Part shown: piece by piece, positions 52,536-53,712 of the stretch | How the letters are laid out: the number at the start of each line of letters is the position of its first letter | How positions within the stretch are numbered: position 1 is the stretch's first letter | Origin: Spirosoma pollinicola | Lineage (GTDB): Bacteria; Bacteroidota; Bacteroidia; Cytophagales; Spirosomataceae | NCBI RefSeq assembly: GCF_002831565.1 | Contig: NZ_CP025096.1 | Coordinates: 5,467,391-5,531,390 of the forward strand | DNA length: 64,000 nucleotides | Direction of reading: 5' to 3' | Program-made: the position numbers and the translations under genes | The notes under the pieces: generated by a model | Databases searched by the model: none | What the model was told of the DNA's origin: nothing | What the model saw: only the letters and a program-made list of their open reading frames with translations

Positions 52536-52808
52536 ATGAAAAAGGGCATTCACCCGGATTACCGCGAAGTGGTATTCCACGACCTGTCGAGCGACTATAA
52601 ATTTCTGACCCGCTCGACCGTTCAAACCAAAGACACTATCGAGTTTGAAGGCCAGACCTACCCGCTCGTAAAGATTGAAGTTAGCTCGCAGTCGCACCCA
52701 TTCTATACGGGGAAAAACGTACTGCTCGATACGGCCGGTCGTGTGGACAAGTTCCGCAAGCGCTATGGCACCAAAGAAAACGCAACGCCAACATCGACCC
52801 AACAGTAG
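52536..52808 (+). CDS. rpmE2: 50S ribosomal protein L31 type B
   Basis: A 90-residue L31 of the type B group, without the zinc-binding cysteines of type A: MKKGIHPDYREVVFHDLSSD, then SSQSHPFYTGKNVLLDTAGR and VDKFRKRYG. The start at 52536 gives the standard N-terminus; the frame extends to 52455 but that part covers the promoter. The last 26 codons plus stop are duplicated at 53572-53652. Confidence 0.95.
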   Translation: MKKGIHPDYREVVFHDLSSDYKFLTRSTVQTKDTIEFEGQTYPLVKIEVSSQSHPFYTGKNVLLDTAGRVDKFRKRYGTKENATPTSTQQ

Positions 52809-52867
52809 TCGGTTCGTTCACATCACAAAAAACTCCCCCGCTGCGGTCAACGCGACGGGGGAGTTTT
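52726..52867 (+). repeat. Direct repeat copy A: rpmE2 3' end plus terminator
   Basis: The segment matches 53570-53712 with 2 substitutions in 81 coding bases, both silent (CGT/CGC and TAG/TAA), and 4 substitutions plus 1 indel in the spacer after the stop. The terminator stem is identical. The two copies flank the antitoxin/PIN genes. Confidence 0.95.
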
Positions 52868-52870
52868 TTT
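52827..52870 (+). terminator. Terminator of rpmE2 (copy A)
   Basis: A 14-bp stem (52827-52840 with 52856-52869) rich in C/G with an A run before and a T run after. Confidence 0.92.
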
Positions 52871-52871
52871 G

Positions 52872-52879
52872 TATATTTG
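52872..52879 (+). promoter_or_regulatory. -7 promoter element of the toxin-antitoxin module
   Basis: TATATTTG fits TAnnTTTG and starts just after the rpmE2 terminator, giving a leader of roughly 10 nt before ATG 52896. No TTTG -33 box is visible, since the terminator stem occupies that place. Confidence 0.55.
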
Positions 52880-52895
52880 ATAAAAACTGAAGCCC

Positions 52896-53132
52896 ATGTT
52901 AGTAGCTGTTGAAGGAGTCTATCAAAATGGACAGGTTTACCTGCATGACAAAGTCCCATTTGAAAATGAGACTAAGGTTATTGTTACTTTTCTGGAAGCT
53001 CCCGCAATGAAACCGAAACACAAACGGCTGACATTAGCAAATTTCTCGTTCAGAAAAACCCGTGAAGCATTGAAAGACTACAAAGGATCATTTAGCGAGG
53101 AAGTCATAAAGGAACGAAGAGAGTCTTTATGA
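52896..53132 (+). CDS. Antitoxin-like protein of a PIN toxin module (VapB-like, DUF2281/DUF104 type)
   Basis: A 78-residue protein. The N-terminus VAVEGVYQNGQVYLHDKVPF then TKVIVTFLEAP is the beta-hairpin pattern of small AF2212-like/DUF2281 antitoxins; the C-terminal half is basic and probably wraps the toxin. Its end overlaps the PIN gene by 4 bp (ATGA). It probably neutralises the toxin and may repress the module. Confidence 0.78.
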   Translation: MLVAVEGVYQNGQVYLHDKVPFENETKVIVTFLEAPAMKPKHKRLTLANFSFRKTREALKDYKGSFSEEVIKERRESL

Positions 53133-53563
53133 ACATTTTTCTGGACACGTCCTCCTTATTTAAGTTGTATTTTCAAGAAAATGGCTCAACTGAATTAGAA
53201 CAATTGTTTGAATCCCAATCCATTGAGCAGATTTATTTATCCGGATTGGCTACGATTGAATTTCGGTCCATTGTCTGGCGCAAAGTCCGAATGAACGAAA
53301 TTACGGCTCAAAATGCGACTCTCCTGCTGGATGCTTTTGATAACGATTGCTCTGTCTATACGCTTGTCCTTACAGATGACTCTCTCCTTAAACTCTCCCG
53401 ACAATTACTTGATAAATATGGGCAGCGTGGTCTCCGTAGTCTTGATGCCATTCAATTAGCCTCGGCGATTAGCATCAAACACGACGTTCAGCTTTTTAAG
53501 ACAGCGGACGATTTATTGAATACATTCTTCATTGTCGAATCCCTGCCTGTATCCATCGGGTAA
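53129..53563 (+). CDS. PIN-domain toxin (VapC-like)
   Basis: A 144-residue PIN ribonuclease: MNIFLDTSSLFKLYF with the first acidic residue, ATIEFRSIVWR with the Glu, SLDAIQLASAISI with the central Asp, and LFKTADDLLN with the last acids. All expected acidic positions appear to be present, so it looks intact. PIN toxins cut tRNA or rRNA when free. Its stop codon lies 6 bp before repeat copy B. Confidence 0.88.
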   Translation: MNIFLDTSSLFKLYFQENGSTELEQLFESQSIEQIYLSGLATIEFRSIVWRKVRMNEITAQNATLLLDAFDNDCSVYTLVLTDDSLLKLSRQLLDKYGQRGLRSLDAIQLASAISIKHDVQLFKTADDLLNTFFIVESLPVSIG

Positions 53564-53571
53564 GTTGATTC

Positions 53572-53652
53572 GATACGGCCGGTCGCGTGGACAAGTTCCG
53601 CAAGCGCTATGGCACCAAAGAAAACGCAACGCCAACATCGACCCAACAGTAA
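53572..53652 (+). pseudogene. Headless fragment of rpmE2 (last 26 codons)
   Basis: It encodes the same peptide as the end of L31 (DTAGRVDKFRKRYG and following residues) and ends in TAA. There is no start codon, and TGA at 53566-53568 closes the frame upstream. It is the displaced or imported 3' end of an L31 gene. Confidence 0.9.
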
Positions 53653-53671
53653 TCGATTCGTTCGTATCCAT

Positions 53672-53712
53672 AAAAAACTCCCCCGCTGCGGTCAACGCGA
53701 CGGGGGAGTTTT
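53672..53712 (+). terminator. Terminator after the PIN module (copy B)
   Basis: Stem 53672-53685 with 53701-53712, the same as copy A, followed by ATTTTG. It can end transcription of the toxin gene. Confidence 0.88.

Follow-up and report, generated by a model that had tools for sequence, protein, structure and literature searches.

A toxin-antitoxin pair between direct repeats of the rpmE2 3′ end in Spirosoma pollinicola, and the recurrence of this layout in related genomes

In the genome of Spirosoma pollinicola (G000), a predicted type II toxin-antitoxin (TA) pair lies between the intact gene rpmE2 and an orphan second copy of that gene's 3′ end. We found the same layout, a gene followed by a close TA pair and then by an orphan copy of the gene's own 3′ end, at ten loci in nine genomes of Spirosoma and some of its relatives; the loci involve nine different genes and several types of TA pair, and related genomes carry TA-free forms of the sites. 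To our knowledge, how chromosomal TA pairs that lie on no known element enter and leave is not settled. Our proposal for rpmE2 is that of a TA module without an integrase, enclosed by direct repeats of a host gene's 3′ end; it would be the TA counterpart of insertion with long target duplication and would have originated by homologous recombination. We consider this reading evenly poised between right and wrong. The recurrence of the layout hints at a recurring way for TA pairs to settle in chromosomes without an integrase.

Anatomy of the rpmE2 locus

We analyzed a window of 64,000 nucleotides, in which rpmE2 (52536..52808, plus strand) encodes a type B ribosomal protein L31 (Pfam Ribosomal_L31, E 1.1e-28; NCBIfam type B L31, E 8.6e-40). 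Downstream, inverted-repeat analysis and folding place a terminator hairpin with a T run (52827..52869, plus strand), and just beyond it is the candidate promoter-like element TATATTTG (52872..52879, plus strand), so called on the basis of what we take to be the Bacteroidota promoter consensus, TAnnTTTG. The unrelated G011 site has, by eye, a similar element ahead of its antitoxin gene. The two genes that follow, for a 78-aa antitoxin (52896..53132, plus strand) and a 144-aa PIN-domain toxin (53129..53563, plus strand; PF01850, E 4.7e-11), overlap by 4 nt, with the small antitoxin gene upstream. This is the arrangement of a type II PIN (VapBC-like) pair; the gene order is the same in relatives, and the same antitoxin-PIN pair is present in G013. 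Toxin residues D6, E44, D106 and D127 are invariant among nine aligned sequences, its own included, and we predict that the pair is a type II TA system with a PIN toxin. The initial annotation had called it a VapB-like/PIN pair. The PIN assignment held; the VapB-like label was not confirmed, since the antitoxin matches no Pfam or NCBIfam family above cut-off and resembles only an AF2212-like family, weakly (E 0.15). Searching plasmids with the TA pair gave a single match, 30% identical; a phage search gave none, and a search of solved structures gave none at E 0.01.

Six bases 3′ of the toxin stop codon begins the second copy of the rpmE2 3′ end (53570..53724, plus strand), identified by sequence comparison and genome search. 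It contains 26 whole codons, the stop codon and a terminator hairpin (53674..53712, plus strand; inverted repeat and folding), and it corresponds to the 26 final codons of rpmE2 plus its stop and terminator (copy 1, 52726..52877, plus strand). Both hairpins are strong folds (-30.4 and -28.3 kcal/mol, z -7.6 and -6.3, for the first and second), and copy 2 also provides a terminator for the TA genes. The two copies are 93.5% identical over 155 columns. A search of the whole 8.79 Mb genome with the tail segment found these two copies and otherwise only their two hairpins, on the opposite strand. The search and the alignment bear out the order of elements that had first been described, rpmE2 and its terminator, the TA pair, and then a second 26-codon tail and terminator; the repeats are slightly longer, at 152-155 nt, than the 142 bp or so first given. 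The ORF list of the segment between them shows the two TA genes and no integrase-sized ORF, in agreement with the integrase-free two-gene payload described initially.

To the right lies a TRIC/glycine-transporter-like gene (53763..54374, minus strand; PF03458, E 2.2e-44). Between it and a thioesterase gene, palindromic repeats are visible by eye (54484-54610), which resemble the REP-type repeats adjoining RAYT-like genes in L198, L205 and L228.

The differences between the two tails are unevenly spread. Coding sequence and stop codon differ at 2 of 83 nt, both silent (one third position; TAG versus TAA), the 18-nt spacer after the stop codon has four substitutions and one indel, exactly as first counted, and the hairpin part has no difference in 41 nt. 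Comparing coding sequence (2/83) with spacer (4/18) gave a Fisher p of 0.009. The differences avoid the codons, in a pattern such as is seen between two working alleles.

Recurrence at other genes

We assigned the families of target genes and cargo by Pfam. Besides rpmE2 in G000, the targets are an AAA helicase gene (G011), a 62-aa ORF without a family (G080), a 375-aa ORF without a family (G359), a sodium:solute symporter gene and dnaB (both in G018, the genome that has the layout twice), a DUF167 gene (G030), rnhB (separately in G007 and G017) and the 3′ part of a gamma-glutamyltranspeptidase gene (G024). The gene-tail repeats span 41-272 nt and in several cases end at or near the stop codon. 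The TA pairs stand in either orientation relative to the target gene and are of PIN, RelE and DUF433/DUF5615 types, with no restriction-modification payload at any of the loci; in G359, where neither small gene has a Pfam match, the pair is called TA on a weak PIN match.

TA pairs occupy two of 30 rnhB loci, two of 30 dnaB loci, one of 30 loci each for DUF167 and the symporter, and one of nine helicase loci. Single-target sites free of TA genes occur at the symporter gene in G013 and G025 and at rnhB in G010 and G027, both sisters of G007; rnhB in G000 likewise has one tail and no TA. The helicase site of G030 is also TA-free, but has another tail copy further on. The DNA of G011 from its tail copy onward is collinear with that of G030 from inside the helicase tail, and G030 therefore displays the TA-free helicase site.

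Cargo other than TA genes, which the initial annotation had proposed to search for, was found at two places in G030 that we left out of the ten. In L331 (about 2392-3120), a GtrA-like gene 3′ of the symporter gene is followed by a copy of the symporter 3′ end, and in L160 (950-2484), a 453-aa gene 3′ of the helicase gene is followed by a copy of the helicase 3′ end. It may thus be that repeats of this kind arise whatever the cargo, and that TA pairs are simply what persists between them.

Our search for repeats around PIN loci of the family and order covered 43 distinct places and was followed by inspection of the DNA. Direct repeats of at least 40 nt occur at five of them (G000, G011, G080, G224 and G359); at four, a contig end lies within the flank and the flanks overlap, making these places not judgeable. 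In the G224 case (L150, 1450-2360), also left out of the ten, what is repeated, upstream of the antitoxin gene, is the 3′ end of the toxin gene itself together with the sequence downstream of it. Within the genus, we took 70 PIN loci from the at least about 150 matches listed, namely 30 given as loci and, of the others, the 40 that head the list; three of the 70 have flanking repeats. The ten loci come from these searches and from incidental finds. Flanking direct repeats of any kind show no excess at PIN loci (3/70 versus 13/480 sham loci, p 0.33). Gene-tail repeats do (3/70 versus 0/480, p 0.002), for a class defined post hoc and with shams sorted by eye.

We then applied a fixed rule, drawn up after the first examples were known: a direct repeat of at least 40 nt and at least 75% alike, lying over an ORF 3′ end, with an orphan copy downstream, non-palindromic, and with at least one ORF between. 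Scanning 1.87 Mb gave seven matches, six of which enclose exactly a TA pair: three matches in 640 kb around PIN loci, two in the window plus 34 rpmE2 regions, and two in the 30 PIN loci, with a few stretches overlapping between sets. Two of the six, the RelE pair of G007 and the DUF433/DUF5615 pair of G024, were unsought finds. The seventh match (L220) we take to be an interspersed repeat adjoining a spurious 68-aa ORF. The rule gave no match in 800 kb not selected for TA, made up of 40 stretches of 20 kb placed non-randomly, 39 at round coordinates and one (L402) adjoining the rnhB site of G007. Palindromic REP/RAYT-like repeats, GIY-YIG-adjacent repeats, interspersed repeats, tandem paralogs and repeats within long genes were set apart by eye and later by the rule. 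Separately, L211 (10644-11232) contains a 100-aa ORF between 117-nt direct repeats behind another gene; we take the ORF to be GIY-YIG-like and the preceding gene to be ilvN-like.

These loci bear on the possibility that a site-specific integrase acting in trans puts TA cassettes at gene 3′ ends, which would make each cassette the cis-mobilizable remnant of an integrative element. Gene 3′ ends, rebuilt on insertion, are familiar integrase targets, and tail pieces are stacked behind one gene at the helicase site, where further pieces lie 3′ of the next gene in G030 (by BLAST) and, as a remnant seen by eye, in G011. Nine unrelated target genes and TA pairs in either orientation weigh against an integrase, as do the ORFs of at least 60 aa between the repeats of the seven rule matches, which are the two TA genes in six and four small ORFs in L220. 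We judge an integrase in trans to be very improbable.

Origin of the second tail

Among the 36 genus genomes, 35 have rpmE2 (for G026, the region covered was 551 nt from the rpmE2 start onward), and a second tail is present only in G000. This restriction would suit a one-off crossover at rpmE2 without general meaning, an option that the initial annotation had left standing. We give it hardly any credence in view of the nine further loci with the same anatomy and the enclosure of TA pairs by six of the seven rule matches.

The interval between rpmE2 and the thioesterase gene differs among relatives. Nothing lies in between in G017, G019 and G031, and in G027 the TRIC gene adjoins a single rpmE2 tail; these genomes and others have the single, TA-free rpmE2 end that had been expected of an empty site. 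G013 has the whole TA pair, G025 the pair with an internal deletion, G018 the antitoxin gene followed by other DNA, and G007 the antitoxin gene, a truncated PIN gene, 2.4 kb of other DNA and the TRIC gene. The TA pair or its remains therefore lies 3′ of rpmE2 in four other species, in each case without a tail copy, which leaves the idea of a cassette newly arrived here without support. The stretch from terminator to antitoxin can be aligned in G000, G007, G013 and G018; for G025 the alignment has a gap. Between G000 and G007, the antitoxin is 78.5% identical, compared with 89.7% for L31; this greater divergence is as expected for a fast-evolving gene that would have been inherited with its host. 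The TA carriers fall into two separate groups in the RNR tree. From the presence of TA genes in these four species, the divergence of the antitoxin relative to L31 and the position of carriers in the tree, the TA pair at the window rpmE2 is probably older than the tail copy.

At sites where rpmE2 of G000 differs from that of a relative, copy 2 has the state of its own genome rather than of the relative by 18:0 for G007, 24:2 for G027, 17:1 for G034 and 14:1 for G017, which indicates that both rpmE2 tails arose in the G000 lineage. Copy 2 is also nearer to its own rpmE2 (93.5%) than to the best-matching relative's (86%, G034), a result that the initial annotation had itself named as pointing away from a foreign source, and a pattern scan of the genome collection for a closer donor returned three loci and no closer relative. 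No relative that we examined fits as a foreign donor, and we rejected the earlier claim that the second copy came from a relative's rpmE2. The argument behind that claim, that silent differences point to a working donor gene, stands in its first part: pooled over the nine TA cases, third positions account for 47 of the 75 coding differences that separate gene and copy, an excess over a freely decaying copy (about 0.45 by our own estimate) with a p of 0.0016, or 0.016 without the largest case. For rpmE2, the donor would have been of the same lineage, not foreign.

A copy that matches its own rpmE2 would also be produced by local tandem duplication of the rpmE2 tail together with the TA pair, followed by deletion of the second TA pair; nothing would be transferred, and addiction to the remaining TA pair would hinder collapse of the repeat. 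TA genes or their remains without a tail copy in G007, G013, G018 and G025 suit such a sequence of events. After copy 2, moreover, TTTTGTAGATTGG resembles the TA promoter region that follows copy 1 and is perhaps a remnant of it; TA-free relatives have similar sequence there, and we discarded TTTTGTAGATTGG as proof of a lost second TA pair as too weak. Duplication followed by deletion needs two steps at every site. We found no second TA copy in the window or at the rnhB, dnaB, DUF167, symporter and helicase loci, and the concentration of rpmE2 differences in the spacer is unlike that of a decaying copy. Tandem duplication is for us an unlikely explanation, though one to be taken seriously.

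Copies were likewise compared with their own gene and with those of relatives at rnhB, dnaB, the symporter and DUF167. At rnhB the copies follow their own genome (12:0 to 14:0 in G017; 7:1 and 7:2 in G007), and judging from such shared states, the extra tail belongs to the host's own lineage at rpmE2 and in the two rnhB cases. The symporter copy of G018 (31:12 and 26:11, own to relative) and the DUF167 copy of G030 (22:11 and 32:6) are mixed. The dnaB copy of G018 is 90.5% identical over 42 nt to dnaB of G013 and G025, compared with 84.8% over 46 nt to its own. G013 shares the dnaB TA pair of G018 without a tail copy; together with its TA pair at rpmE2, also without one, this suggests that TA arrival and tail duplication were possibly separate events. 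As separate observations on dnaB, that of G012 is one 1038-aa ORF whose two homologous parts lie about 1.3 kb apart, by eye an intein-like insertion, and dnaB of G015 is also long, with an intein-like insertion by eye (L329, 33-3149; L332, 1-2028); and in G007 and G008 (L328, 2208-3263; L327, 3041-4156), a second, partial dnaB-like gene lies directly behind dnaB.

The rnhB copies are close to their genes. The G017 copy starts directly after the RelE stop codon, with a single difference from its own gene in 70 sites; the G007 copy, leaving aside a 15-nt gap, is 98.9% alike. Between the two genomes, the rnhB genes are 82% alike and the TA pairs 73-76%. Either gene conversion has maintained the likeness of the tails of an old rnhB TA pair, or the pair arrived on two occasions.

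Near identity of young copies is also what would be seen if the 3′ end of the gene had suffered a staggered break, filled in with capture of a TA fragment, to give a long native duplication, identical at birth. The variable repeat length fits such a break, as does the position of several repeat ends, at or close to the stop codon, and by eye neither the right junction of rpmE2 nor that of rnhB in G017 shows evident microhomology. The third-position excess of differences in the pooled cases speaks against it, and we regard staggered breakage as decidedly unlikely.

Proposed route and comparison with known systems

In the homologous-recombination reading that we prefer, an allele that carries the TA pair and one that lacks it would recombine between close kin through the gene tail, in a homologous (RecA) reaction that yields the duplication. 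Homology would serve to join one end, the other would be joined illegitimately within the tail, and the recipient's tail would end up 3′ of the cassette; alternatively, a small circle carrying the TA pair and a tail might integrate. A later crossover between the tails would loop out the TA pair and leave a clean site, gene conversion would keep the tails alike, and re-entry at tail repeats might follow a loss. The toxin would select against cells that lose the pair, so that TA cargo would outlast other cargo between tail repeats. We infer both the recombination route and the role of addiction. A broader proposal, which we put forward only tentatively and hold to be doubtful, is that chromosomal TA pairs of Spirosoma and its relatives form a class of integrase-free mobile units that use the host's homologous recombination: each would carry or gain a host gene tail, loop out cleanly, re-enter the same gene in kin and be kept by addiction, its tails evolving in concert with the host gene. 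The orphan gene tail offers a recognizable footprint. Combined with unoccupied sites and with young cases like the rnhB locus of G017, it makes the layout countable in genome surveys and open to laboratory tests.

Integrase-bearing islands and cis-mobilizable elements at gene 3′ ends rebuild the gene end, are flanked by direct repeats and stack at one site. The loci described here share the rebuilt end, the repeats on both sides and the stacking. They differ from islands in that the TA cassette has a two-gene payload and no integrase, that we noticed no shared core site, and that the rebuilt end at rpmE2 is not foreign, both tails having own-lineage states.

Insertion of restriction-modification genes with long target duplication is said to have been described by Nobusato et al. 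in 2000 and by Furuta et al. in 2010. Restriction-modification systems are described as inserting with long target duplications (PMC3874152, PMC3031569, PMC1643837, PMC4978471), of about 100 bp in PMC3874152. The TA cassettes resemble such insertions in being addiction-type modules on no known carrier element, with variable direct repeats of about 100 bp and unoccupied single-copy sites in relatives. They differ in payload, which here is a TA pair, in repeats that are gene 3′ ends with a stop codon or terminator, in their hosts, Spirosoma and relatives, and in extra tails that share host-lineage changes at rpmE2 and rnhB. Papers that pair "long target duplication" with "toxin-antitoxin" apply the term to restriction-modification genes in those passages that we saw, and our literature search, over partial texts, found no report of TA pairs between gene-tail duplications, which does not prove that none exists.

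Three further comparisons can be drawn. Mobile ORFs of fungal mitochondria (atp6 of Glomus and Allomyces) leave a displaced C-terminal duplicate of the gene; the ORF there encodes an endonuclease, and the expressed tail is thought to be foreign (PMC3630166). The order of gene, inserted ORF and displaced C-terminal duplicate is like ours, whereas our payload is a TA pair without an endonuclease. Homology-facilitated illegitimate recombination, in which one end is joined by homology and the other illegitimately, is known with natural competence and conjugation (PMC3240628); it is a process rather than an element, is like our proposal in how the ends are joined, and carries no link to TA genes that we noticed. 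TA modules have been proposed to act against deletions and so to stabilize integron arrays (PMC2654758), in which addiction likewise protects deletable DNA, whereas the unit protected here would be the TA pair between the tails of one gene. If our proposal is true, it extends the insertion mode of restriction-modification genes to TA pairs.
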